Virus record (IMG/VR): IMGVR_UViG_3300043436_004340
Coordinates: 1-39,694 of that record
Length of the DNA: 39,694 bases
From: a virus
Direction: 5' to 3' (one strand)
The translations under genes and the position numbers were made by a program. The notes beneath the pieces are model-generated. The model worked only from the letters and a program-made list of their open reading frames with translations, searched no databases and was not told the DNA's origin. This document shows positions 1,659 to 39,694 of this stretch, piece by piece (the stretch's first letter is position 1; every line of letters begins with the position of its first letter).

Positions 1659-2069
1659 ATGCCATTTATTACCTACCCCCAAGCTAACGGACAAGTTGCA
1701 GTCATCATCCCAACGGGTGACGTGCAGGACTGCATCAAAGATGTTCCAGCAGGCCTGCCCTACAAGATTGTGGAGTCGCTTAGCATAGATGACAATTACT
1801 TTAATGCCTATGACTACTCCAAGGAGTTAGGTGCAGAGGTCAATATTAACAAAGCAAAGTTGATCCACCTTGACAAGTTCCGCGAAGCTCGCAAACCCCT
1901 CCTCTTAAAGCTGGATGTTGACTACATGAAGGCTATTGAAATTGAAGACACTGTAAAAGCGTCAGAAATTGCGGTTGCCAAGCAGGCTTTGCGAGACGTT
2001 ACTAAAATCACGCTCCCTGATACTCTGCCCGAGATCAAAGCAACGTGGCCCACGATTCTTGAACCATGA
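1659..2069 (+). CDS. Putative tail-fibre-associated (assembly chaperone-like) protein
   Basis: 136 residues from the ATG at 1659, 4 bp after the fibre stop. An earlier in-frame Met at 1626 would overlap the fibre and adds an unlikely N-terminus. The ending, with TLPEIKATWPTIL after a helical region rich in Ala/Lys, resembles small proteins encoded after fibre genes in many phages and sometimes annotated as tail fibre assembly proteins. Position directly behind the fibre supports that role, but I see no diagnostic motif. It overlaps the next gene by ATGA. Confidence 0.5.
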   Translation: MPFITYPQANGQVAVIIPTGDVQDCIKDVPAGLPYKIVESLSIDDNYFNAYDYSKELGAEVNINKAKLIHLDKFREARKPLLLKLDVDYMKAIEIEDTVKASEIAVAKQALRDVTKITLPDTLPEIKATWPTILEP

Positions 2070-2314
2070 GTACTGAAGAAAAGGACGAAATCTTAGCAAG
2101 TTTATCTACACTCATTGGAATAGCTAAGTGGCTTGGTGGCGCTTCTTTCTTGGCTCTTTGCGGACTTATTCTTGTTATTGTTGCTGATCACTACGAGCAA
2201 CAAGTAATTAAAAGCGATGTTCACTGGATGAGACCCAGAGTTGAGCAGCTTTGGTATCAAAATAAAAGCAGTGTAAAAGATGTATCTGTTACATCAAAAG
2301 AACCAAGTGCTTAA
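2066..2314 (+). CDS. Small single-pass membrane protein
   Basis: 82 residues with one hydrophobic segment at about residues 18-42, an acidic N-terminus (MSTEEKDE) and a hydrophilic C-terminal half. The start overlaps the preceding stop (ATGA). Candidates are a second holin, an antiholin or an inner-membrane spanin-like protein, but it lies 2.5 kb from the holin/endolysin pair and has no long coiled coil. Function unknown. Confidence 0.6.
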   Translation: MSTEEKDEILASLSTLIGIAKWLGGASFLALCGLILVIVADHYEQQVIKSDVHWMRPRVEQLWYQNKSSVKDVSVTSKEPSA

Positions 2315-2620
2315 ATGGCCTACACTTCTGATGATCGGTTAATAACGGCATCTCAAGCATTTGATGGTGTACTTACTGTAGGAACCTTTACTAGTTTAAC
2401 TTCAGCAGTTATTAGAGACGCAAACCCTCAAAGAACAATGCTCACTGTTTTTAATCAAGGCCCTGGAGTGTTGTACGTGCTTTACGGTTCGGGGACCGTG
2501 AGCACTTCAAACTACTCTGTAAAACTTTTTAAAGACAGTACTTTAGAAATTCCTTTCTATCAAGGCGTAGTAGCTGGAAAGTATGAAGTAGCAAGTACCG
2601 CCAAAGTAACCGAACTGTAA
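2315..2620 (+). CDS. Hypothetical small beta-rich virion protein
   Basis: 101 residues, starting directly after the previous stop with no intergenic base. It is beta-rich, with a hydrophobic core strand around NPQRTMLTVFNQGPGVLYVLYG, cited here only by its first part NPQRTMLTVF. Similar short proteins occur in the fibre/decoration region of environmental phages and may decorate the head or tail. The location among structural genes supports a virion role; no enzymatic motif is visible. Confidence 0.55.
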   Translation: MAYTSDDRLITASQAFDGVLTVGTFTSLTSAVIRDANPQRTMLTVFNQGPGVLYVLYGSGTVSTSNYSVKLFKDSTLEIPFYQGVVAGKYEVASTAKVTEL

Positions 2621-2621
2621 T

Positions 2622-3044
2622 ATGCCTATTTATCCGCAATCAGCCGGTTCAGTAATATTTTCAGAGGTCGTTGTTGATAATATAACGATAACCTCTGGGC
2701 AGATAAAGTATACGCCATCTGGTGGTAGTGAGCAGACTTATCAACTTCCAGACGTTGGAGGAACTTTTGCACTTACAAGTGATAAGATAGCAAAAAGAAT
2801 ATTTCAAGGTTTTACAGTAAGTGAATACGACACTATGATACCTAGTTATTCAGGAGACACCGTAACTTCATTTACATTAAAAAGCGGCGGTACCTCAGGA
2901 ACAACAACCAATATTATTGCGTTAAACTACACCGGAGATTCTTTAACATCAAAGGTATTAAAAGCTTCAGATGGAACAACAGTGCTAAATACGTATACTT
3001 TCTCATACAGCGGTTCAACGCTAGTATCTAAAGTTTTAACTTAA
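2622..3044 (+). CDS. Hypothetical structural protein
   Basis: 140 residues, low in Cys/Trp and rich in Ser, Thr, Gly and Val. The N-terminal GSVIFSEVVVDNITI and the YTPSGGSEQTYQLPDVGGTF segment resemble short tail or baseplate appendage proteins that precede variable tips. The C-terminal half has repeated beta-strand-like YTGDSLTSKVL / YSGSTLVSKVL units. It lies in the run of appendage genes between fibre and lysis module. Function unknown. Confidence 0.5.
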   Translation: MPIYPQSAGSVIFSEVVVDNITITSGQIKYTPSGGSEQTYQLPDVGGTFALTSDKIAKRIFQGFTVSEYDTMIPSYSGDTVTSFTLKSGGTSGTTTNIIALNYTGDSLTSKVLKASDGTTVLNTYTFSYSGSTLVSKVLT

Positions 3045-7053: not shown

Positions 7054-8576
7054 AGATCTATGTATTGATTTGTTCGTGGTTTAAGTAATCCAAGACTTTG
7101 TTTTGCTCTAGTTATACCAACGTACCAGACTCGTCGTTCATCGTCGTTACAAGACGATAAAGATTCGTAAGCAATTGAAGCCATGTCAGTGATAAGAAGT
7201 ACGTGGTCTGCTTCTCCGCCTTTGGCTCCGTGGATCGTGGATAGTTTAATGTTTGGTTTACTGTTTAACTTATTTTTAACTTGCAGTGTTTTAAAGTAAT
7301 GCAACTCAATTGGTGAAATACGACTTAATGCTTCATACCAAGGAGCCGTGGTCTTAAGTCCGTAGACAGAGACTAACTGACTAAGGTTCACTGACTTATC
7401 GGGGGCCAACTTGGCAAGTGAGGCTCGTGACCCGTAAGTATAACCTTCTTTTGAAAACATCAGATCGTACGCGGTCAACGCTTCTGTAACTGTACAATAC
7501 GCCCCGTCAAGTAATTTATTCCATGCTCTAATTGCTATACCAGTTTCACCATTGACTAAGCAGTCCACTGTAGATTCATAGAGCAGTCCTTCGTTAATGC
7601 AGCGGTTTTGTATTGATTGCAACAGATACTGATTGCGCGCAAGGATTAACCAATTACCTGGACAGTCAAAGTCTACGTTGTCTAAGTCAATGTCATAACC
7701 TACATACCCCTCTGTGTTCCTAGGGTTCCAAGACTTTTCACGACGATTAGATACTTGGGTTATTTGATTGTTAGCAATCGCTGCAATCCTTGAAGGTACT
7801 CTATAACTTTGCTGAAGAATTTTTGTTTCTACTGTAGGCAATGAAATAAACTGTTCAATGTCTGCTCCTGCCCATCTAAAAATTGCCTGATCATCATCAC
7901 CGGCAATCCAAATTGATTCACTGTTTGCTGCTAACTTTTCTACTGCCTTCCATTGTAGTGCCGACAAATCTTGTGCTTCATCGATGATAAGTAATCTAAA
8001 AAAAGGAGCCTGTCCTTCAGCAGTAAAGACTGATAAAAGGTCATTGTAGTCGTAGAGGTCTTTTTCTTTTTTATATTCTTTGAGGGCTTTTTCAAGGATC
8101 TTGAGCGAGTCAAAGGAGACATTGTATCTTGCTTCATTGTCATATGTTTCGCGGAGATTGCACATCCGCATTCTTGTTAACTGTTCAAGAAACAAAAGAC
8201 GATCGCCTTCTGCTCCTCCCCAAGTTGTTGTGTGGTCTTCCCAAGATTGTTTACATTGAACATCTAAACCCAATAGATCACCAAGAGCCATATAGTCTCT
8301 AGGTCTCATTAGTTGTTTATGGTCAATGCCGAGTAATCTAAAACACAAACTGTGAAGAGTTCTAAAATACGGTAAACGATTCTCGTCAAACCCAAACTGC
8401 TTCATTGCTCTTTCTTTAGCTTCATTAGAAGCTTTACGAGTAAAAGCAATAAAGGCAATTTGTTCAGGTTCAACGCCAGAGGCTAATGCTTCACTAACTG
8501 TATTTAGTAATGTCGTTGTTTTCCCAGTCCCTGGTGGACCAAGAAGCAATCGCGTTTTACTAGATACTGACTGCAT
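7050..8576 (-). CDS. UvrD/Rep-like superfamily 1 DNA helicase
   Basis: 508 residues with a full set of SF1A motifs: Walker A LLGPPGTGKT (~11-20), motif Ia AFTRKASNEAKERA (~44-57), motif II LIIDEAQDL (~196-204), motif III GDDDQAIFRWAGAD, motif IV QQSYRVP, motif V STIHGAKGGEADHV and motif VI WYVGITRAKQSL. This is a 3'-5' DNA helicase/translocase, likely the replicative or recombination helicase since no DnaB-type helicase is present. Start and upstream stop overlap as TAATG with the primase gene. Confidence 0.92.
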   Translation of the reverse strand: MQSVSSKTRLLLGPPGTGKTTTLLNTVSEALASGVEPEQIAFIAFTRKASNEAKERAMKQFGFDENRLPYFRTLHSLCFRLLGIDHKQLMRPRDYMALGDLLGLDVQCKQSWEDHTTTWGGAEGDRLLFLEQLTRMRMCNLRETYDNEARYNVSFDSLKILEKALKEYKKEKDLYDYNDLLSVFTAEGQAPFFRLLIIDEAQDLSALQWKAVEKLAANSESIWIAGDDDQAIFRWAGADIEQFISLPTVETKILQQSYRVPSRIAAIANNQITQVSNRREKSWNPRNTEGYVGYDIDLDNVDFDCPGNWLILARNQYLLQSIQNRCINEGLLYESTVDCLVNGETGIAIRAWNKLLDGAYCTVTEALTAYDLMFSKEGYTYGSRASLAKLAPDKSVNLSQLVSVYGLKTTAPWYEALSRISPIELHYFKTLQVKNKLNSKPNIKLSTIHGAKGGEADHVLLITDMASIAYESLSSCNDDERRVWYVGITRAKQSLGLLKPRTNQYIDL

Positions 8577-10090
8577 TAGAATGGACGGTTGTGTTCGTTT
8601 TTAGGAACTTCAAACTCTCCTTTAATCTGTATAAAAGCGGGAACAGACCAACAATTAAGTCCCTTACCTTTGATATTAAAGAAGTGATGTTGTGCCCCAA
8701 ACTGTTTTAGATGAGAAGCAACCTGATGAATCTTGAAATCGTAAAACTTATGCCGGTCTAAGAAACTCATTAAATCCTGCATTCTAAAATAAGTCCTACC
8801 GTCATTACTCCAAGGTTTACCAAGCAACATCTCATCTGCTAGTTTTGCTTGAGCACGGCCTGTGCAAAACTTTTCAAGCAACTCGGTCAGTTGTCCTTTA
8901 GGTGAAGCATCGATTGGTACATCAACCACATTAACTTGCGTGAGCAACTGCTGAACCATAGACTGCCAAGCAATCCTGTTAACAACTGGCGGCATAATGT
9001 TTAAGCAATCCATGCAGCGCTTTTGGAAGCGTGTCTGGTTTTGCAAGTCATCAGTTGCTAGCTCTAATCGTCCACCGGACTCTACATCAATAAACCAAGT
9101 TGGCGGATTAGTGTTAAGTTTAGTCAGTGTACTTAGAACCGGCATTCCAGTTGCTGCGCCTATACCGTGTTTGCGTAACCTACATTGCCCTGAATTACAG
9201 TGTGGATTAATCGGCGGTTTGCTACAGCAGTAAGCATACTCTTTCCGCTTAAGACTTTTAATTACACCCTGAACCTCTGTTGAACTAAGAGGGGGATGCA
9301 TGTACTTATGATTGTACTCTTCTACTGTATTTTCCCAGTTATCAGGAAAAGCTTTACGAGCATACACTCCTAGATTAAACAAGCCGTCGTTGCGAGTACC
9401 AGAAGGAAACCCTGACTTGATTAAATGTTGAAGACAAGGTGGACCATCAGGAAGATCTTCAGATAGTTTTATATCTATTGATTGTACTTCTTTTATGGTA
9501 AGCCGGTTGTTTTCTACATAATCAAGGAACGCTGACAAAGACATGGCATTGCCGTCTGCGTCTAATGCGTATCTTGTAGCGTTGTCTCCTGCAAAGTAAG
9601 GCATGTTGATCCACTGACCAACGTCGCCTCGCTCTGCTAAAATCTCTGTTTGCTTAGGAAAGATTTCTGCTGTGCCATAGCCAAGGGCTGCGGCAATTTC
9701 TTTTAGTTTAGTTTGTATTAAAGATGCTGGTATCCAATCGACTGAAAATAAGTATAGGTGTATGCCGCCTGATTTGCTTCTGCAAGGAACAAGTTTGTAA
9801 CCAGAATCTTTTAGTTTAGTTAAAAAATTACCGATGTTGAGACTGTATTGGTCGATGTCAATGGCACCGAATTTACAACAGCTTTCGTCGTTGATAGGTA
9901 TAATACCCAAGCCTTTAGTACCTGCAAGATGTTCTTCCCACAGGGCAAGCGAAACGGGTTCGCGCACAGTGTGTGCACGACCCGCTTGCTTTGCGCCAGC
10001 TTGGGCTACCGTTACCGAGACTTCATAAACTCCATGAGCTCTTTCAAGCCCATGAAATATAGCATGAAGACGCTCTGCGTCAGTAGCCAC
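8576..10090 (-). CDS. AEP-type DNA primase (TOTE-like)
   Basis: 504 residues. The archaeo-eukaryotic primase signature is visible: acidic pair FGAIDID (Asp78, Asp80), then SKSGGIHLYLF with His111, and a third segment TAEIFPKQTE (~140-149). A PriCT-like helical region follows (GTRNDGLFNLGVYARKAFP, ~231-249), then a four-Cys cluster YCCSKPP...HCNSGQC (Cys288, 289, 298, 303) that may bind Zn or an Fe-S cluster. This domain order resembles AEP primases of TOTE conflict systems and of several podoviruses. It replaces the TOPRIM primase-helicase of T7. It lies between the ssDNA-binding candidate and two helicases. Confidence 0.8.
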   Translation of the reverse strand: MATDAERLHAIFHGLERAHGVYEVSVTVAQAGAKQAGRAHTVREPVSLALWEEHLAGTKGLGIIPINDESCCKFGAIDIDQYSLNIGNFLTKLKDSGYKLVPCRSKSGGIHLYLFSVDWIPASLIQTKLKEIAAALGYGTAEIFPKQTEILAERGDVGQWINMPYFAGDNATRYALDADGNAMSLSAFLDYVENNRLTIKEVQSIDIKLSEDLPDGPPCLQHLIKSGFPSGTRNDGLFNLGVYARKAFPDNWENTVEEYNHKYMHPPLSSTEVQGVIKSLKRKEYAYCCSKPPINPHCNSGQCRLRKHGIGAATGMPVLSTLTKLNTNPPTWFIDVESGGRLELATDDLQNQTRFQKRCMDCLNIMPPVVNRIAWQSMVQQLLTQVNVVDVPIDASPKGQLTELLEKFCTGRAQAKLADEMLLGKPWSNDGRTYFRMQDLMSFLDRHKFYDFKIHQVASHLKQFGAQHHFFNIKGKGLNCWSVPAFIQIKGEFEVPKNEHNRPF

Positions 10091-12410: not shown

Positions 12411-14279
12411 TTAGATGTCTGTCCAGCTGTTACCCAGTGTTAGATCTGCTTTGATGGGAACTTTAAGCTTGACGCAGGTTTCCATCAGTGCTTTAATTTT
12501 GTGTGCCTGCTCTTCTGACTCAACAGAATAATCAAGTTCATCGTGTACCTGAAGATGTGGCACTAAACCGGTTTCATTGTACACAGTCAACATTGCCTTC
12601 TTTGTCATGTCAGCAGATGAACCCTGAATAAGGGCATTCAAAGCTTTGTGGACCATGGCTCGTTGTATAGGTACATCGCCAAGTTCCTGCTTAATCTTTT
12701 CAAGCGGAGCAGGGGTATAATAAGATGTTCCTTTAAAACTAGGTTCATACAGATTAAAATTCCTACGTCTTCCTAGTAAAGTAGTTATGAATCCTCTAGA
12801 CATCGCTGCCCTTGACGTTTCAATAGCAAGTTCTTTAACAAAAGGAACACGGCGATGGTATTGTTCAAACAAAGTTTGCGCGTCTTCTTTATTTCGGTTA
12901 AGTTCAGCAGCTAGTTTATTAACGCCCATACCATACATCATACCAAGGTTAATGGTCTTTGCATCACGTCTAGTAATGCCAGCCATATCAGCAACTGCTT
13001 GGTGGAAATCCATATCGGGATTATTAATAAACTGATTGCCAAGTTCCTGTGCGCTTTCCATTTTGCAAGTCATTGCATAGTGGACAAGGACTCTTGGTTC
13101 TTGCTGACTATAATCTAGTTTTGCCCAGTATTTTCCTTCTTCTGGTATAAAAAGATTACGTACAAGAGGAGCATGTACTCCACGTGCAGGGATTTGCTGG
13201 AGGTTAGGGTTTTCACTACTAAATCTTCCTGTACGCGTACCTGAATCGTCTTTACGTAGTTGATTAAACTTAGCGTGGATTCTTCCGTTATGGTTGTGCT
13301 TCAAGATCAATTGATCTATGTACACTGTCCGTAGTCTATCAAGTTTGCGCCAGCTAGATAATGCCACTAAGAAAGGTGCTTGACTAGTACTGATAAACGC
13401 ATTATCAAAACTAGGATTACCTATCATAGTCCTTGGGTAGTTAATTGATTGCTTGTCACAAGCTCGAGCAAGGTCTGCGTTAGACCAGGGGTTAAACTCA
13501 AATCCAGCCAGTTTATACAAAGCACGCAACTGAACGGTGGCTGATCGTTCTAATTGCAAACTAGCCGTTGACGCTTTTTCTAGATCAATCCTTACTCCTT
13601 GAAACCGCATTTTAAGCAATAGATCTGTAATGTCAGTCTCAAGTTCAAAAATACTAGACAAGTTGTTTGCTGCAATCTTAGGCAGTTGCAAATTAAAAAT
13701 TGCAAGAGTTTGCCTTGCATCTGCTTCGGCATACGGTCCAACAAACTTGCTATGTAAGTGGTGCAATCCTCCTTTAGGATCTACGCCATAGGACTTGGCT
13801 GCTTCAATAAGAAGACTCTCATCCTTAGTTTCGTTAAGATATTCTTTTGCTAGCGCATTAAGACTATAACTAAGCTTTTCCTCGTTAAGAAGTGGTTCTG
13901 CAATTTGGATGTCGTATTTTTTACCAACAACTTCGATACCAGTAGCTTTAAGCCATTCAAGATCATACAGGAAATTGGCGCCTACTTTTTTCTGATGCGG
14001 TCGAGAAAACTCTTTACGCGCCCACTCGACCACACGATTGCGATCAAGATTCCCACCATCACCATGCTTGAAAGGAAAATAACCGTTATACCCAGTATCT
14101 GTAGCCACTGATATGCCAACAACGTAACCGTCATGACGTACTGCGCCAGGGCCTTTAGTTTTAAGACCAGGATCGCAAGTCTCGGTATCGATTGCAATGA
14201 TTTTAGCATCTGATAAATCGGGTAATACTTCTGGCGGTGCCCAGTTACTCGTAGGAGCAAACAAAGGTTGTTGTGTCAT
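12411..14279 (-). CDS. polA: Family A DNA polymerase with 3'-5' exonuclease
   Basis: 622 residues from the ATG at 14279, which overlaps the upstream stop as ATGA; the longer frame from 14348 is rejected. The exonuclease domain has IAIDTETCDP (Asp31, Glu33), GANFLYDLEW (~102-111, Exo II) and YAEADARQTL (Exo III). Polymerase motifs are A, AKLDYSQQEPR (Asp389), B, RRDAKTINLGMMYG (~437-450), and C, LQVHDELD (~576-583). The residue matching E. coli Phe762 is Leu445. There is no 5'-3' nuclease domain. It is the replicative polymerase. Confidence 0.95.
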   Translation of the reverse strand: MTQQPLFAPTSNWAPPEVLPDLSDAKIIAIDTETCDPGLKTKGPGAVRHDGYVVGISVATDTGYNGYFPFKHGDGGNLDRNRVVEWARKEFSRPHQKKVGANFLYDLEWLKATGIEVVGKKYDIQIAEPLLNEEKLSYSLNALAKEYLNETKDESLLIEAAKSYGVDPKGGLHHLHSKFVGPYAEADARQTLAIFNLQLPKIAANNLSSIFELETDITDLLLKMRFQGVRIDLEKASTASLQLERSATVQLRALYKLAGFEFNPWSNADLARACDKQSINYPRTMIGNPSFDNAFISTSQAPFLVALSSWRKLDRLRTVYIDQLILKHNHNGRIHAKFNQLRKDDSGTRTGRFSSENPNLQQIPARGVHAPLVRNLFIPEEGKYWAKLDYSQQEPRVLVHYAMTCKMESAQELGNQFINNPDMDFHQAVADMAGITRRDAKTINLGMMYGMGVNKLAAELNRNKEDAQTLFEQYHRRVPFVKELAIETSRAAMSRGFITTLLGRRRNFNLYEPSFKGTSYYTPAPLEKIKQELGDVPIQRAMVHKALNALIQGSSADMTKKAMLTVYNETGLVPHLQVHDELDYSVESEEQAHKIKALMETCVKLKVPIKADLTLGNSWTDI

Positions 14280-14647
14280 TTGTCGGTGGGATTGATCGCT
14301 TCCTTGATCTCGGCAAGTTCCTTCTCGGCTTTTTCTGCTCGCTTGCAAGCAATGCGAAACTCGGTATCTAGGAACGAATTGATGTCCTGTGATTGGAGCA
14401 AGTCGGATTCTGTCTTGAGGAGTTGGTGGTTTAGCTTTGCGACCTCGGCACTAAGAGTGCAATTTGATATTTTCCACTCCAGCAGGTCGTCACCTAATGC
14501 GGCTTGGATCTCTTTAACCTCGGCTTTGGATGCGGCGAGTTCTCGTTCCAGCATCATGCCTATGGTGTAATGCACCCAGTCTGAGGTTTTGCCGTCATAG
14601 TATCGCTCACGAGCGGCATCGGTTCGTGGTGTGTCGGTTGTTGTCAT
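14276..14647 (-). CDS. Hypothetical coiled-coil protein
   Basis: 123 residues from the ATG at 14647, overlapping the upstream stop as ATGA. The N-terminus TPRTDAARERYYDG and LERELAASKAEVKEIQAAL lead into a long helical, coiled-coil-like region up to the C-terminus (residues ~30-115). Proteins with a TPRTDA-type start and a coiled coil are frequent in environmental phages and have no known function. Codon use is like its neighbours. Confidence 0.6.
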   Translation of the reverse strand: MTTTDTPRTDAARERYYDGKTSDWVHYTIGMMLERELAASKAEVKEIQAALGDDLLEWKISNCTLSAEVAKLNHQLLKTESDLLQSQDINSFLDTEFRIACKRAEKAEKELAEIKEAINPTDK

Positions 14648-15483
14648 AGTACATGGGTGAGGAAGTCTGTGCATTTATTGTGATCATTCATCCACTCACG
14701 ATGTTTTTTATCTTTGGCTGCTCCAAGGTAGTCAACAAGCTCACTAGCATCATCAAAAAAATAATGATCAAACTCTTCGCATACACCGTCAGGAGTATTA
14801 ATACAATCCTGAGCTGCAGCTTCATTAGACACATACAAGTGCTGACTGCCGGCATTGAGAGTAAGATAACCTAGATTTCCACAAAGGAAATTATCGCTAG
14901 CCGATTTTAAAACTGTTATTACTCCGGCTGAAATCATACTAAAGTTAAACACATCATAAGGCCATCCAAGCCAAATGTCTGATGATCGCATATTAGCAAT
15001 GCAATGAAGTTCGTGGTCACGGTATAGAAACTGCAATGAAAGAGTGCAAGGAACGTCTTTAGTTTCAGGAGGGTTTTCTCTCCATATGTTAATGACTGCT
15101 TGTCTTGAGTGAGGATCTTTAAGTAACTTTTCAATGACATAAGTCATCTGATCAAAGATCTTTGGACCATAAGAACCAAAAAATGTTTCACCGTTATCAC
15201 TGAAGTTCTTAATAGCTTTACTATAGGGTTCAATAGTACTGACACGGTTATCACCGGTAAGTATCCAGTGGGCTTCGGCAGCCATAAACTTGAAACCTAG
15301 ATTGCGAGCAGGATTATTAACCACAGGCTGCGACATATTAATCCGCGTCCTATGACCAACGATCTCCCTAATTGGCATCCCTCTTGGAGACGCAATAACA
15401 GGTTGATTGATAAGGGCTTTAAGGGTTTTCTTCCATACAGAAGAAGCCGATAATGGGTTTGGATCTAGACAAATAGTGGACAT
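14644..15483 (-). CDS. ThyA-family dNMP (hydroxy)methyltransferase, probably dCMP-specific
   Basis: 279 residues with the thymidylate synthase fold: Glu70 in AAEAHWILTGD, Arg127 in DPHSRQAVINIW, catalytic Cys146 in DVPCTLSLQF, MRSSD (166-169) and the sugar-binding HLY (215-217). At the position of E. coli ThyA Asn177, which selects dUMP, this protein has Asp177 (LGWPYD). T4 dCMP hydroxymethylase has Asp at the same place within MRSND...FRND. So the likely substrate is dCMP and the product 5-hydroxymethyl- or 5-methyl-dCMP, although plain thymidylate synthesis cannot be excluded. It lies with a dNMP kinase and a dCMP deaminase. Confidence 0.75.
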   Translation of the reverse strand: MSTICLDPNPLSASSVWKKTLKALINQPVIASPRGMPIREIVGHRTRINMSQPVVNNPARNLGFKFMAAEAHWILTGDNRVSTIEPYSKAIKNFSDNGETFFGSYGPKIFDQMTYVIEKLLKDPHSRQAVINIWRENPPETKDVPCTLSLQFLYRDHELHCIANMRSSDIWLGWPYDVFNFSMISAGVITVLKSASDNFLCGNLGYLTLNAGSQHLYVSNEAAAQDCINTPDGVCEEFDHYFFDDASELVDYLGAAKDKKHREWMNDHNKCTDFLTHVL

Positions 15484-15484
15484 G

Positions 15485-16051
15485 TTAGTAAGTTAAAGAT
15501 GAAATGAATTTGTTGATGTCTTGGCCATCTGAATCAATGTCGTAATGAAACAATTTTGTTTTGGGGTGATATTGTTCCATGTGCAAGTACCATTCGTTGT
15601 ACAGCATATAGATTTTTTCCCACTCATCAAGATTATATGGGTGATCTTCATCGACGTTGTTAGTGTATCGCTTAAGAGCGTTTTTAATGCTGCCAGGAAT
15701 ACAATAAATGTGGATTGCATTAACAGCTTCTAAGCGATTGTGGTGCTCAAGATAATCTATTGTTTGCCATGGATCGTTGTCAAGTTCGACAGTGCTGTTA
15801 TAAATGTTGCCACGAACTTGGAGACCATAAATCATTTCTGAAGGATACAAGCGATCAATAACTACTGGTCCATCTTGAGCATACTCTAGCGCTTGGTTAA
15901 GAACCGTGCGATGATAATGCATTACGTCTAGTCCCTTTGTATATGAACTATGAAAATACTGCGCCTTCCAATAGTCACAAAGTTTTTTGGCAAGAGTAGT
16001 TTTGCCGCTGCAATCAGGTCCTTCAAGAAGAATAATACCGGGGGTTGTCAT
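15485..16051 (-). CDS. Deoxynucleoside monophosphate kinase (thymidylate kinase-like)
   Basis: 188 residues. The P-loop is EGPDCSGKTTLAKKL (~10-24) and the DRx segment is VVIDRLYPSEMIYG (Asp66, Arg67), as in thymidylate kinase-like phage enzymes. It phosphorylates a dNMP to a dNDP. Its place 1 bp upstream of the ThyA-family gene suggests it acts on that enzyme's product, as T4 gp1 acts on hydroxymethyl-dCMP. The C-terminal half is divergent, so the exact nucleotide cannot be read from the sequence. Confidence 0.78.
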   Translation of the reverse strand: MTTPGIILLEGPDCSGKTTLAKKLCDYWKAQYFHSSYTKGLDVMHYHRTVLNQALEYAQDGPVVIDRLYPSEMIYGLQVRGNIYNSTVELDNDPWQTIDYLEHHNRLEAVNAIHIYCIPGSIKNALKRYTNNVDEDHPYNLDEWEKIYMLYNEWYLHMEQYHPKTKLFHYDIDSDGQDINKFISSLTY

Positions 16052-16052
16052 A

Positions 16053-16484
16053 TTAGGATATTTGAATTAGTTCTACGCCGTGAAACTTAAGTATCTCAAC
16101 AGCTTCAGAGTTATAGTCGTCGTGATACAAGACATACTTTACGCCATGCGACGCAAGCAAAGTGCTACATTCATTGCAAGGCAGCGTCGTTATAGCCACG
16201 GTTTTTACGTCACCGCGTTTAAACAAGGAACAAAGGTTCTGCTCAGCATGGAACATAAACTTGCGCCGTTTATCTCTGTCTTGCCAAAAACCTGCACTAG
16301 CCTTTTTACCGGCAGCAAGGCCATTGTATGCAGTGCCAATGACTCGATTGTTTTTGTCAAGGGCAACTGCACCAACCTGCCTGAATGGATCCTCGCTGCG
16401 TCTTGATGCAACAAAGGCAAGTTCCATAGCGTACCGCTCAATAGACAAGCGGCTTGCGTTTTCTACACTAGGTTTTTTAGGCAT
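16053..16484 (-). CDS. dCMP deaminase
   Basis: 143 residues. Zinc-binding motifs are FHAEQN (His79, Glu81) and LPCNECSTLL (Cys103, Cys106), with SEDPFRQVGAV upstream, all typical of the cytidine/dCMP deaminase family. It converts dCMP to dUMP for thymidylate synthesis. It overlaps the MazG-like gene by 22 bp and precedes the kinase by 1 bp. Having it beside a dCMP-type ThyA enzyme mirrors T4, which uses both. Confidence 0.85.
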   Translation of the reverse strand: MPKKPSVENASRLSIERYAMELAFVASRRSEDPFRQVGAVALDKNNRVIGTAYNGLAAGKKASAGFWQDRDKRRKFMFHAEQNLCSLFKRGDVKTVAITTLPCNECSTLLASHGVKYVLYHDDYNSEAVEILKFHGVELIQIS

Positions 16485-16831
16485 GGTGCTTTCCAGTTTT
16501 TAGGCTTGACAACATCATATTCAGAGTTGCGCTTGCTTTCGTCCTTAGACTTAGCTCTTACTTTAGACATGTTAGCGGCATGAACCCGCCGCCACGCTTC
16601 GGCAAAGTTGTACCCTTGCATTGCAGCCGTGCCCATTGCAACATAAACCAGATCCACGAGCGCGTCAAGTTGACCCTCGTAATCCTCCAGCTGTAAAGCC
16701 CGCTCATATTCATTAAGCTCTTCATTTAGGAATTTAAGTCTAAAGACTGCGAGGTGCTTTGGCAATGGCTTTGGCTTGCTTGGCAGTGGCAACTGAAACT
16801 TCCTGTGAAATTCCAGGATGTCGTACCACAT
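16463..16831 (-). CDS. MazG-like nucleotide pyrophosphohydrolase
   Basis: 122 residues from the ATG at 16831, where homology-like sequence begins (MWYDILEFHRKF). The all-alpha NTP-PPase motif is FLNEELNEYERAL (Glu37, Glu38, Glu41) with a downstream LDALVDLVYVAMG (Asp56, Asp60), then AWRRVHAANMSKVR. It hydrolyses NTP/dNTP to NMP and pyrophosphate; in this setting a dCTPase-like role is possible. No strong Shine-Dalgarno is seen and the 5' end overlaps the preceding small gene by 92 bp in another frame. Confidence 0.75.
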   Translation of the reverse strand: MWYDILEFHRKFQLPLPSKPKPLPKHLAVFRLKFLNEELNEYERALQLEDYEGQLDALVDLVYVAMGTAAMQGYNFAEAWRRVHAANMSKVRAKSKDESKRNSEYDVVKPKNWKAPCLKNLV

Positions 16832-17006
16832 CGAGACTGGCCAGGATTTTATTGTTTTGTTGTATAAGCGTGTTGTTCTGGTCGATGATCCTGTCAAGAC
16901 CGATAGATAGCACTGTTCCGATAACGCCAAGAAGCCCAGTTTCTGTAGTAACTGTTTTATATAGTTCATGGTAGATTTTAAGTACGCTGTCTTTATCTGC
17001 AATCAT
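16740..17006 (-). CDS. Hypothetical small protein with hydrophobic segment and coil
   Basis: 88 residues, starting 1 bp after the methyltransferase stop. A hydrophobic stretch GLLGVIGTVLSIGL (~24-37) is followed by a polar helix DQNNTLIQQNNKILASLD. This looks like a small membrane-associated or oligomerising protein. It overlaps the MazG-like gene by 92 bp, more than usual here, so its 3' part could be dispensable. Function unknown. Confidence 0.5.
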   Translation of the reverse strand: MIADKDSVLKIYHELYKTVTTETGLLGVIGTVLSIGLDRIIDQNNTLIQQNNKILASLDVVRHPGISQEVSVATAKQAKAIAKAPRSL

Positions 17007-17007
17007 A

Positions 17008-17877
17008 TTAGCTGTTAAGTTCAGTCAGAAAGTCGTCCTGATTAGGAGACTGTGACCAGGGTTTAGTAATGTCGGCCAGCGGCTTAAACCGCGTGTTGAA
17101 GCCGGCAGTTAAGTGCTTGTCTTTACCAAGCACCCACAAGCAATTGCGGGATTTAGCTGGATACAAAGGAGCAAAAATCGTTGCAAGGTAGTTTGTGTCA
17201 TAATACTCCCTGAACTTGGCAAAGATGGTATCAAGACCATCAGCAGCAAGGCTGTCTTTGTAATCCTTGATCGAAGCAAAGGTGCCGTAGACATCCTTGA
17301 TTTCAAGACCAACTTTTTCTATGATAGAACCTAGGGCCTCGTAGGTCGTTTCGTTGACGTGGTTGTCAGCAGCTCCTGTCTTTTCATCATAACAAGGTGT
17401 TGATAAAAAGATGGTTGCATCTTCGCTGTCATCAAGAAGTGCCCTAAGTTTCTTAAGAAGTCGTACGCCGTGCGCAGGTTCAACGTGCTCAAATACTTCA
17501 AAGCAAGTTACAATGTTGAACTCTCCGTCGTGTTCAAACGTACAGACATCTGTGTCAGTGTGATACTCGCCGGGAAACTTGTCCGTCTTGGATAGAGTGG
17601 AAATAGCCTCTGCCTCGATTGGACCGTATTCAACACCAACGTACCTTTCAGGGATATAACGGCTGGAGTACAGTGTTTTGGCCAGTGGCAATTCACGACC
17701 ACACCCAACATCAATGATCTTCGCCGTCTTGTAACGCTGGCTCCGTGCGAGATGTTTACATACGTGCGTCCACCTAAGGCAGTGAGCAATGTAGTCGCGG
17801 TGAATAAACCCGCGAGTTTCAGCATTGTCAATACTGAGGTAGGTTTTATCGATTGATTTTCCATGTGCGTTTGGCAT
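17008..17877 (-). CDS. Class I SAM-dependent methyltransferase
   Basis: 289 residues. Motif I is IIDVGCGRELP (~54-64), followed by an acidic motif II in YVGVEYGP and the segment CFEVFEHVEP, as in class I methyltransferases of the Methyltransf_23/UbiG-like type. It has no DNA-base-flipping NPPY or ENV motif, so it is not an obvious DNA methylase. A substrate may be a nucleotide, a small molecule or a modified base. It heads the nucleotide metabolism cluster, which makes a link to base modification possible but unproven. Confidence 0.7.
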   Translation of the reverse strand: MPNAHGKSIDKTYLSIDNAETRGFIHRDYIAHCLRWTHVCKHLARSQRYKTAKIIDVGCGRELPLAKTLYSSRYIPERYVGVEYGPIEAEAISTLSKTDKFPGEYHTDTDVCTFEHDGEFNIVTCFEVFEHVEPAHGVRLLKKLRALLDDSEDATIFLSTPCYDEKTGAADNHVNETTYEALGSIIEKVGLEIKDVYGTFASIKDYKDSLAADGLDTIFAKFREYYDTNYLATIFAPLYPAKSRNCLWVLGKDKHLTAGFNTRFKPLADITKPWSQSPNQDDFLTELNS

Positions 17878-22219: not shown

Positions 22220-22345
22220 GGTTATTGGTGTATTGGCAACTTTCAAGGTACTTTGTTGAGCACGCAAAAGTGTCCAATATGCCAATAATGCCAATACTCT
22301 ACTTATAGAACATATTGGCACACAAGCAAGAGCCAATAACTTGTT
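22220..22345. repeat. ATTGG iteron module, copy 2
   Basis: Same order as copy 1: GGTTATTGGTGTATTGG, a ~40-nt divergent stretch, ATGCCAATAATGCCAATA (22279-22296), a TTATAGAA element, TATTGGC-12 nt-GCCAATA (22312-22338) and the ending GCCAATAACTT. Both copies have the same orientation, 1186 bp apart. It lies just upstream of the rightward block. Confidence 0.8.
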
Positions 22346-22360
22346 CCCTGTTTTTAACTT

Positions 22361-22372
22361 CAGTGTACACTG
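22361..22372. promoter_or_regulatory. Perfect 12-bp palindrome CAGTGTACACTG
   Basis: It lies between iteron copy 2 and the first rightward gene and is followed by the palindrome CACGTG. It contains TGTACA, similar to the -35 elements listed here, but no good -10 follows at 17 bp. Probably an operator. Confidence 0.5.
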
Positions 22373-22449
22373 TTCACGTGCACTACTGTCTCAATGGATC
22401 GATTCCTAACCATATTTATGGTTTTGTAGATAAAAGAATCCTCTATAGT

Positions 22450-22986
22450 ATGGATGAAGCCTACGCTGGCCAGTACGAGCCATGCGTCTTGTTTGGAGTC
22501 ACTTCAATCCCAAGCCGAGCTCTGCATTTCTCTATCATGTGTGAGTCAGGAGCTCAGTGGGCACGGATCCCTATCCACATGCTAAGGCACGATACTCCTT
22601 TAGCACCTGAGCATCCCCTGTCTGATCTTCAGATGTGGGACGCGCATGGCTGGGATTTTTCAATTGTGCAGTATGAGTATCTTAGGGAAATGGGTTGCCA
22701 GTATAGAAAGCGCGACGGTTCTCTAGTCGAAGCCAGTTACTGGTTTACCCTTGACAATACCGATAACGGCTACTCTCAGTATCCGCCAGAACATAAGTGC
22801 TTCCATGTGCTTCTGTTAGAGGATGGATCAGGGCAGATTGCTGCAATGCCTAACAACCGGATTGTTTGGCGTGATGATTCATGGGTAAAACCCGGTCACA
22901 AGTTTGATTACAAGGTTATGTCTTCTGACACATGGCACGCTGAAAAAGGTCGTAATGCCCAAGACACCGCATTCACTAAAGATTAG
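22450..22986 (+). CDS. Conserved phage protein upstream of terminase
   Basis: 178 residues from the ATG at 22450. The open frame continues upstream into the iteron module to a TTG at 22315, but that part looks non-coding. Conserved-looking segments are CVLFGVTSIPSRALHFSIM, WARIPIHMLRHD, LSDLQMWDAHGWDFS and YWFTLDNTDNG. Proteins of this type occur just upstream of the small terminase in aquatic phages; the function is unknown. It opens the rightward block, but a promoter candidate follows it, so it may be expressed apart from the packaging genes. Confidence 0.65.
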   Translation: MDEAYAGQYEPCVLFGVTSIPSRALHFSIMCESGAQWARIPIHMLRHDTPLAPEHPLSDLQMWDAHGWDFSIVQYEYLREMGCQYRKRDGSLVEASYWFTLDNTDNGYSQYPPEHKCFHVLLLEDGSGQIAAMPNNRIVWRDDSWVKPGHKFDYKVMSSDTWHAEKGRNAQDTAFTKD

Positions 22987-37313: not shown

Positions 37314-39694
37314 TGGCCGTACCAAAAGCATTCGTTAAATGCGTCAATGAAATCAAAGCCGTTGCTCCAGATGTGTTTAATGACGATCAAGCACTTGAAA
37401 TCCTCAAGCGACTCGATGAAAGATTTAAAGAGAAAAAGGCTGCTGCGCAAGGTCAAGCTGCTGAAAAGATTATTTTAGACGAGGCCAAAAAGATGGCCGG
37501 TGAGAATATCCTAGCCATTCAAATTGCCAAACGTAACCACGCCATTAACGTTGGTATAAAGTCTAAAATCAATAACTACCTGTCAAACTTTAAAGACCCT
37601 GTTGAAGGATTAGAAGCGTACCTTGCAGGAATTAACAAGGTCCGCGGCGGAGCAAGACTTTCTATTGACGCTCAGGGCAAAGGTCTAATGCTCGGGTATC
37701 TTGGTGGTATGGCAAACTCTCTTGATAAAGAGGGTTTGTGGGAAGTATTTGCTTCAGGAAAACTTGATAAAGAGATTGCTGCTGAAATGTGGGAAATCCG
37801 TGAGAACGGAAACCCTGGCGTAAGCGGATCTACTGAAGCTCAAAAGATTGCTGCCATAGTTCAAAAAACTCAGATTGATCTTGTCAATCGGCAAAACAAT
37901 GCAGGTGCTTTTATTAAAGCAAGGCCTGGTTACATTGTTCGGCAAAGCCATGACATGATTAAGATTCGAAGGGCTGGTTATGAAGCATGGAAAGAAACCA
38001 TTCTTCCATTGCTTGATAATGAAGCAACCTTTGGAACGGGCGACCCTGAAAAGATTCTTAAAGGGGCTTACGAAGCGTTAGGTTCTGGGATACACCATAG
38101 AGCTTCGGGGGCAGACCAGGGTGATAGTGGAGGTCACTTGTTTGGCTTCCATGGACCTGCCAACGTTGCTAAAAAAGCTAGTCAAAATCGAGTGCTTCAC
38201 TTTAATAGTGCCGACTCGTTTATGCAGTACAACGCCAAGTACGGAACCAAAAACCTGCGTGAGGCAATCCTTGCCGGTGTTGAACACGGTTCAAGGAACG
38301 TGGCTCTCATGGAAAACCTTGGAACAAACCCGCTTGCTTTGTTTGAGGGTATTGTATCTGACTTGCTTAAAGAGAACCGCGGTAACTTTGAAGTCCTTGA
38401 CAAACTCCGAGGTTCACGGCTCACAAACCTTTTTAAAGTAATTGACGGAACAACGCGCATTCCTGTTAATCCACACTCCGCAAGGATTGCTAACGGAGTT
38501 AGAATGCTTCAGACAATGTCAAAACTTGGCGGAGCCGTTATTTCTTCAATTTCAGATATTCCCACAATTGCCTCTGAACTTAGATACCAAGGCAAAGGTA
38601 TCTTTGAAAGTTATGGAGAAGCCTTAGGCGGACTATTCAGGGGCCGTGGTTCTGAAGAACAAAAAGAAATTGCAAGACTTATCGGCGTAGGTCTTGAAGG
38701 AATGATGGGCGACATCCATGGTCGTTTTAACACAGATGATTCTGTTGCAGGAAAAGCGGCAAGGCTAACTCAGACGTTCTTTAAGTGGAACGGTTTGTCT
38801 TGGTGGACTGACACCATGCGTACAACAACCGCCCTTGTCATGAGCAATCACTTAGGCGAACAAGCCAGCAAAGCAATTAACTTGCTAGACGCAGATACGC
38901 AACGAATCTTTGGCTTGTACAACATTGGAGAAGCTGAATGGAATTTTTTTAGAAAGACTGCGTTTGAGGGAGAAAACGGTTATAAGTACCTGACCCCTGA
39001 CAAACTTGACACAGCTGATAAAGCAGACCTTGAAAAAATAATCAAGGACCGCGGCGGTGTTGTTAATGAAAGAAATCTGCAACGTGAACTTGATCAAATC
39101 AGAACAAAGTTTCAGACGTACTTTCAAGACCGCGCTGATTATGCTGTTCCTCAACCTGGAGCCAGTGAACAAGCTACACTTATTATGGGCAGCAGACCGG
39201 GAACCGCTCTTGGTGAAGCTGCTCGGTTTATTGCTCAGTTTAAAGGATTTCCTTTGGCAGTGCTTATGCGCCCAGTTGCTCGTGAAGTTTATGGTAAAGG
39301 TGCGGATTCCATTGGTGAGGCTCTTAAAAATGGCAACGGTGAAATGGCATCTCTTGTTCACCTTATGGTAGCAACCACAGTTTTTGGTTATATGGCGGGA
39401 GTTACAAAAGACATTCTCAGGGGTAAAACGCCTCGTGATCCTAAAAACCCTAAAGTTCTTTTGGCTTCTCTTGCTCAAGGCGGTGGCTTTGGAATCTACG
39501 GAGACTTTTTGTTTGGAGAGTTTAGCAGGTACGGACGCTCTGCATTGTCAACAGCTGCAGGCCCTGTTCTTGGTCAAGTAGATGACATTGCCGAAATCTA
39601 CACTAAACTAAGAAATGGAGATGACGCTATGGCTCAAGTGTTTCGGACAGCATTAAATAACACACCCTATGCTAATCTGTTTTACACAAGAACC
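37313..39694 (+). CDS. Large internal virion (ejection) protein, truncated by the contig end
   Basis: Open to the end of the window (794 codons) and continued at 128-259, giving 837 residues. The N-terminus MAVPKAFVKCVNEIKAVAP is followed by helical, charged regions. Later come VRMLQTMSKLGGAVISSISD, TQTFFKWNGLSWWTDTMR and AARFIAQFKGFPLAVLMRP, segments typical of the largest podovirus core protein, which probably enters the host membrane during DNA ejection. Starts in a TAATG overlap with the preceding gene. Confidence 0.8.
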   Translation, partial: MAVPKAFVKCVNEIKAVAPDVFNDDQALEILKRLDERFKEKKAAAQGQAAEKIILDEAKKMAGENILAIQIAKRNHAINVGIKSKINNYLSNFKDPVEGLEAYLAGINKVRGGARLSIDAQGKGLMLGYLGGMANSLDKEGLWEVFASGKLDKEIAAEMWEIRENGNPGVSGSTEAQKIAAIVQKTQIDLVNRQNNAGAFIKARPGYIVRQSHDMIKIRRAGYEAWKETILPLLDNEATFGTGDPEKILKGAYEALGSGIHHRASGADQGDSGGHLFGFHGPANVAKKASQNRVLHFNSADSFMQYNAKYGTKNLREAILAGVEHGSRNVALMENLGTNPLALFEGIVSDLLKENRGNFEVLDKLRGSRLTNLFKVIDGTTRIPVNPHSARIANGVRMLQTMSKLGGAVISSISDIPTIASELRYQGKGIFESYGEALGGLFRGRGSEEQKEIARLIGVGLEGMMGDIHGRFNTDDSVAGKAARLTQTFFKWNGLSWWTDTMRTTTALVMSNHLGEQASKAINLLDADTQRIFGLYNIGEAEWNFFRKTAFEGENGYKYLTPDKLDTADKADLEKIIKDRGGVVNERNLQRELDQIRTKFQTYFQDRADYAVPQPGASEQATLIMGSRPGTALGEAARFIAQFKGFPLAVLMRPVAREVYGKGADSIGEALKNGNGEMASLVHLMVATTVFGYMAGVTKDILRGKTPRDPKNPKVLLASLAQGGGFGIYGDFLFGEFSRYGRSALSTAAGPVLGQVDDIAEIYTKLRNGDDAMAQVFRTALNNTPYANLFYTRT
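39568..39694. repeat. Terminal overlap, right copy
   Basis: Identical to bases 1-127. Removing one copy restores one uninterrupted reading frame across the join, consistent with a circular assembly. Confidence 0.95.

Follow-up and report, generated by a model that had tools for sequence, protein, structure and literature searches.

A putative dCMP 5-hydroxymethylase linked to a small-molecule-type methyltransferase in a small podovirus-like genome

The virus record analysed here in its entirety (39,694 bases; hereafter the window) very likely encodes a dCMP 5-hydroxymethylase in the open reading frame at 14644-15483. Judged from the sequence and the predicted fold, the gene very probably makes 5-hydroxymethyl-dCMP, which would allow the virus to replace the cytosine of its DNA with a modified base, as T4 does. 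This kind of enzyme is already known, and close relatives are already annotated 'pyrimidine hmase'; the aspect that appears to be new, on the basis of genomic linkage, is a module in which a dedicated methyltransferase stands in place of a glucosyltransferase or carbamoyltransferase.

Genome and Gene Module

The window is bounded by an exact 127-bp direct terminal repeat and is therefore probably a complete genome:
1-127, no strand: left copy of the repeat (computed)
39568-39694, no strand: right copy of the repeat (computed)

The window encodes a T7-like portal, a major head protein, and T7-like components of the tail and internal virion, which suggests a podovirus. A 13-kb portion of the window had no megablast match among phage records, so the virus is without a near named relative. 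A primase is encoded at 8576-10090, beside helicases of the UvrD and SNF2 types and Pam3 gp32/33/34-like genes; it matches PF22548, the archaeo-eukaryotic-type primase domain found in TOTE conflict systems. A protein matching phrog_3704 (annotated ferredoxin; E=2e-35) is encoded at 22315-22986, immediately upstream of the structural gene block.

The predicted hydroxymethylase is part of a minus-strand cluster in the order methyltransferase, pyrophosphohydrolase, deaminase, kinase-like protein, hydroxymethylase, small ORF, and DNA polymerase A:
17008-17877, minus: class I SAM methyltransferase (small-molecule/UbiG-like), candidate 5hmC-tailoring enzyme (PF13489, E=3e-10; fold; linkage)
16463-17002, minus: MazG/PRA-PH-type nucleotide pyrophosphohydrolase, candidate dCTPase (PF01503, E=1e-13; phrog_671, E=1e-27)
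16053-16484, minus: dCMP deaminase (PF00383, E=8e-14; phrog_174, E=2e-29)
15485-16051, minus: P-loop (d)NMP kinase-like protein, candidate hmdCMP kinase (phrog_761 thymidylate kinase, E=6e-18)
14644-15483, minus: predicted dCMP 5-hydroxymethylase of the ThyA superfamily, 279 aa (ORF; PF00303; PDB match; AlphaFold2)
12411-14348, minus: family A DNA polymerase, the next major gene of the cluster (PF00476, E=3e-66)

Homologues or analogues of four enzymes lie next to each other: a hydroxymethylase, a dCTPase, a dNMP kinase, and a dCMP deaminase. The kinase-like and hydroxymethylase genes are spaced by 1 base. A carbamoyltransferase sought in the window was not found, and no glycosyltransferase occurs among the window ORFs scanned with Pfam. 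The partners recur at 43 hydroxymethylase loci, where the kinase is present at 37, the deaminase at 31, the pyrophosphohydrolase at 31, and the methyltransferase at 30, all lower bounds as many contigs are cut. In record MW202510 the methyltransferase, NTP-PPase, kinase, hydroxymethylase, deaminase, and DNA polymerase are all present, and Stenotrophomonas phage AXL3 has all five genes of the window module; Pseudoxanthomonas phage PW916 is a further isolate with the module. Metavirome contigs that were selected for modified cytosine have thymidylate synthase genes that mostly encode Asp177 and are accompanied by PRA-PH and dCMP deaminase (PMC8670742).

The AXL3 authors read the module genes as a thymidylate pathway; its DNA is cut by only 2 of 37 restriction enzymes, both with A/T-only sites, while the 35 that it resists all have G/C in the site (PMC7504290). 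This resistance fits full cytosine modification. Use of the pattern to discriminate 5hmC from 5mC or a bulkier base was dropped, because T4gt DNA, which contains plain 5hmC, already resists 81.9% of enzymes (PMC7653180).

Family, Fold, and Active Site of the Enzyme

The initial annotation described a ThyA-family ORF but gave no strand. The ORF is real and lies on the minus strand; it has an ATG start and encodes 279 aa free of internal stops. It is the only PF00303 (Thymidylat_synt) gene of the genome (E=9e-18; score 64.8 bits, cut-off 24.3), the match ending at model position 195 of 266, and the protein is without a ThyA-like C-terminal part. Its scores lie far below the cut-offs of the NCBIfam equivalog models for thymidylate synthase (54 vs 327 bits and 52.5 vs 108 bits), and Asn177, Leu143, His147, and Trp80/Trp83 of ThyA are all absent. 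In a PDB search the best matches are chains of the CMP hydroxymethylase MilA (3e-21), thymidylate synthases following at 1e-14 or worse; for the AlphaFold2 model (pLDDT 92), the seven best fold matches are all MilA. The enzyme is accordingly filed with the cytosine-directed pyrimidine hydroxymethylases of the thymidylate synthase superfamily, a placement that draws on sequence and modelled fold.

Alignment with E. coli ThyA and T4 gp42, both taken from their genome records, agrees with the initial annotation in setting the Asp of LGWPYD opposite ThyA Asn177 and T4 Asp179, and MRSSD opposite T4 MRSND. The numbering of the window enzyme and ThyA coincides, by chance of length, at Cys146, Arg166, Ser167, Asp169, and 177. 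The codons that bear on chemistry and substrate are:
14953-14955, minus: Asp177, base-specificity residue (ThyA Asn; T4 gp42 Asp179; alignment)
14983-14985, minus: Ser167 (MilA Ala176), deoxyribose preference (alignment, PDB match, PMC5175136)
15046-15048, minus: Cys146, catalytic nucleophile (alignment)
15055-15057, minus: Asp143, hydroxymethylase signature (T4 Asp145; ThyA Leu143; alignment, role from PMC6400193)
15103-15105, minus: Arg127 (MilA Lys133, T4 Arg123), deoxyribose preference (alignment, PDB match, PMC5175136)

The catalytic core is kept (Glu70, which corresponds to ThyA Glu58, with Cys146, Arg166, and Asp169), and His215 and Tyr217 are the equivalents of ThyA His207 and Tyr209. 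Asp143 sits three residues before the catalytic Cys; in T4 the counterpart, Asp145, activates the water molecule for the last step of hydroxymethylation, the D145N exchange abolishes activity, and the site is occupied by Leu in thymidylate synthases (PMC6400193). Thr147 is the T4 state, where ThyA has His, and in MetaGPA positions 147 and 177 were the two that gave the best separation between contigs with and without modification (PMC8670742). Deoxyribose is the expected sugar because Arg127 and Ser167 replace MilA Lys133 and Ala176, and the A176S/K133R exchange moves the preference of MilA from CMP to dCMP (PMC5175136). The shift toward dCMP proposed in the initial annotation thus gains support from Asp177, Thr147, nearest homology to MilA, and Arg127/Ser167 of the dCMP type as opposed to Lys/Ala of the CMP type.

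Two positions depart from the reference enzymes and count against the hydroxymethylase reading. The Ser-x-Tyr of T4 reads Gly103-Ser104-Tyr105, with the Tyr kept and the Ser replaced by Gly; T4 S94A retains about 25% activity (PMC6400193), and the Ser is not taken as chemistry-defining because SPO1 gp29, an annotated dUMP hydroxymethylase, has Ala there. The residue matching ThyA Arg127 is Gln, as it is in SPO1.

Relatives of the Hydroxymethylase

By tblastn, Stenotrophomonas phage AXL3, Pseudoxanthomonas phage PW916, Pelagibacter phages HTVC200P/HTVC119P, and Manatee Spring phages encode proteins 44-51% identical to the window enzyme, annotated 'thymidylate synthase' or 'pyrimidine hmase'; the key residues are identical in the relatives that were aligned (AXL3, HTVC200P/HTVC119P, and Manatee Spring, with PW916 left out). 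A tree of 38 members of the thymidylate synthase family places the window enzyme in a clade of 21 enzymes, every one with Asp177 (support 97/99), apart from T4 gp42, from an Asn177 group with SPO1, and from ThyA; T4, L112, L139, and L138 form a separate group (support 100/98). Across the tree Asp177 goes with Asp143/Thr147, ThyA has Asn177/His147/Leu143, and known or presumed 5hmdU enzymes have Asn177/Asn147/Asp143. Asp177 is likewise found in 40/40 loci of a peptide-motif search, a set partly selected for it since one query peptide, WPYDVFNF, includes the Asp.

The surroundings of some relatives differ. In Lactobacillus phage ATCCB an Asp177/Asp143 'thymidylate synthase' adjoins an annotated beta-glucosyltransferase (L145, 436-1245 and 1261-1773), a T4-like pairing. 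At L037 a C-5 cytosine-specific DNA methylase (PF00145; 6538-7986) lies immediately upstream of the Asp177 hydroxymethylase. At L036, a locus without the methyltransferase, a protein that matches HMUDK_hel, the helical domain of 5-hmdU DNA kinase (1909-3027; E=3e-24), is encoded about 5 kb upstream of the Asp177 hydroxymethylase; a different tailoring route for the hydroxymethylated base is possible there.

The Linked Methyltransferase

The methyltransferase of the module (METHYLTRANSFERASE) is a class I SAM enzyme nearest to UbiG-type and other small-molecule methyltransferases, scoring 30 bits, under the cut-off, against the UbiG model. Its AlphaFold2 model (pLDDT 90) matches the folds of ToxA and of O/N-methyltransferases, and GxG, ExxEH, STP, NHxxE, and RN positions are invariant in the family. 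A classical DNA cytosine/adenine methylase is disfavoured: the protein matches Methyltransf_23 and UbiG instead of DNA methylase families, its fold matches are small-molecule enzymes, and the family median pI is about 6.

Relatives of this gene are rare. By tblastn it is found in 5 of 50,697 phage records (AXL3 under two accessions), all five of which were also found by the hydroxymethylase search; for comparison, the deaminase matches 530 phage records and the pyrophosphohydrolase 128. A search with the methyltransferase only, in which the Asp motif played no part, retrieved 90 loci from virus and genome contigs. A thymidylate-synthase-family gene is present at 65 of the 68 loci with at least 3.5 kb of downstream sequence and, after clustering at 70% identity, at 28 of 29 covered representatives. 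The best-match enzymes at these loci have Asp177 in 74/74 and Asp143 in 72/74 cases; because the 21 clade members and these 74 enzymes all share the Asp, Asp177 is no chance substitution. Two methyltransferase-linked enzymes (L053 and L069) have Asn at 143, a change that inactivates T4 gp42.

Three covered loci lack the partner gene: L052 starts within its own methyltransferase, while L051 and L134 have an Asp-type hydroxymethylase elsewhere in the record or genome (for L134 at the genome level). Counting L112 and L116 as well, each record or genome with an apparent exception to the linkage (L051, L112, L116, L134) contains at least a piece of an Asp-type hydroxymethylase. The partners fall into four lineages: the window type; the T4 type, represented by L112, which adjoins its methyltransferase, and by L139, which comes from the same 273-kb record as L051; L138; and L135, which clusters with the enzyme of phage ATCCB. 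In the other direction, the methyltransferase was not detected near the hydroxymethylase in HTVC200P, HTVC119P, L001, L009, L011, L025, L036, or L037.

The association thus runs one way, from methyltransferase to hydroxymethylase and not the reverse, the pattern expected of an enzyme that tailors the hydroxymethylase product. Inheritance of the genes as one block accounts for some of the link; as the methyltransferase pairs with four hydroxymethylase lineages, descent alone is argued against. The linkage suggests that 5hmC is tailored further, possibly by O-methylation. Tentatively, and with less than even likelihood, the enzyme may methylate the oxygen of the 5hmC hydroxymethyl group, in the nucleotide or in DNA, such that the phages would carry 5-methoxymethylcytosine or another methylated 5hmC; this would be a simple one-step tailoring. 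Methylation at other sites, action on nucleotides instead of DNA, or a role away from the base are possible alternatives. A literature search, not exhaustive, found no report of '5-methoxymethyl' together with cytosine and bacteriophage.

Alternative Readings of the Enzyme

An enzyme in which Asp177 selects dCMP could also complete hydride transfer and yield 5-methyl-dCMP, as inferred for phage Xp12, whose DNA contains 100% 5mC (PMC7653180), and an Asn-to-Asp exchange at the 177 site turns Lactobacillus casei thymidylate synthase into a dCMP methylase (Liu and Santi 1992, as cited in PMC8670742). Against this, Asp143 occupies the place of the Leu of methylating enzymes, Trp80/Trp83 are missing, the Pfam match stops short, and the nearest solved relatives hydroxymethylate; a methylase is very unlikely. 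The initial annotation had left the product as either hydroxymethyl- or methyl-dCMP: the former is favoured, and the latter fits poorly with the Asp143 signature and with a protein that lacks Trp80/Trp83 and the ThyA-like C-terminal part. As MilA is the nearest solved relative in both sequence and fold, the substrate might instead be the ribonucleotide CMP, but Arg127/Ser167 are the states of dCMP and dUMP enzymes rather than of MilA, and the neighbours are deoxynucleotide and DNA-replication genes, which makes this reading highly improbable.

Least probable of all is a dUMP enzyme, either a divergent thymidylate synthase or a dUMP hydroxymethylase, supplied by the dCMP deaminase encoded two genes away. 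The AXL3 and PW916 homologues were annotated as dUMP-type enzymes, and neither a second thymidylate synthase nor, when searched for, a ThyX was found in the window. The residues are nevertheless Asp177 with Thr147, not Asn177 with His or Asn147, and relatives carry ThyA or ThyX in addition: contigs L113 and L131 encode a genuine ThyA (Leu143, His147, Asn177) besides the window-type enzyme, and ThyX accompanies the latter in AXL3 and in 2 of 10 related virus records. A further point against a dUMP enzyme is that T4, too, has a dCMP deaminase as well as its dCMP hydroxymethylase.

Proposed Pathway and Implications

For the dCMP 5-hydroxymethylase, the preferred reading, catalysis would begin with attack of Cys146 on C6 of dCMP while Asp177 holds and protonates cytosine N3; methylene-THF would donate the one-carbon unit, and water activated by Asp143 would quench the exocyclic methylene, giving 5-hydroxymethyl-dCMP and THF. 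The MazG-type pyrophosphohydrolase would probably supply dCMP from dCTP, and the deaminase would convert dCMP to dUMP and so feed the host thymidylate synthase. The kinase-like protein may phosphorylate hmdCMP, and hydroxymethyl-dCTP would enter phage DNA through the polymerase encoded alongside, conferring protection from restriction. The SAM methyltransferase would probably modify the 5hmC nucleotide or base further.

The 'thymidylate synthase' label given to enzymes of pelagiphages, Stenotrophomonas phages, and many uncultivated viruses probably hides dCMP hydroxymethylases, so that cytosine replacement would be common far outside the T4-like phages, small 40-kb phages included. The methyltransferase is a candidate for a new type of 5hmC tailoring beside the known glucosyl-, arabinosyl-, and carbamoyl- types, with relevance to phage escape from restriction and CRISPR and to enzymes for base-resolution sequencing.

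Comparison with Known Systems

The window enzyme and T4 gp42 have in common the superfamily, the Asp at the specificity site, the Asp three residues before the catalytic Cys, the Thr after it, the MRS(S/N)D motif, and a setting among phage replication genes. Membership of the gp42 subfamily is nonetheless rejected: the residue two before the Tyr of Ser-x-Tyr is Gly103 in place of Ser, and the enzyme falls in its own well-supported clade instead of grouping with T4 gp42. The window also differs from T4 in its small podovirus-like genome and in having no glucosyltransferase neighbour. Of the solved proteins, MilA, from mildiomycin biosynthesis, comes closest both in sequence and in fold (28% identical across the region of the fold match) and has the same Asp pair, but belongs to an antibiotic cluster and not a phage genome; Lys133 and Ala176, which mark the MilA/BcmA CMP hydroxymethylases, are here Arg127 and Ser167, and membership of that group is rejected too.

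Among the named relatives, whose gene order is slightly different, AXL3 is a siphovirus and has ThyX in addition, and the HTVC phages have the kinase-like gene without a detected methyltransferase. The 5hmC carbamoyltransferase module of MetaGPA resembles the window in combining PRA-PH and dCMP deaminase with a thymidylate synthase homologue that has Asp177, there on cytosine-modified contigs (PMC8670742); the word 'methyltransferase' is absent from the main text of that paper. The two modules differ in the tailoring gene, which encodes a carbamoyltransferase in the MetaGPA module and a SAM methyltransferase in the window.
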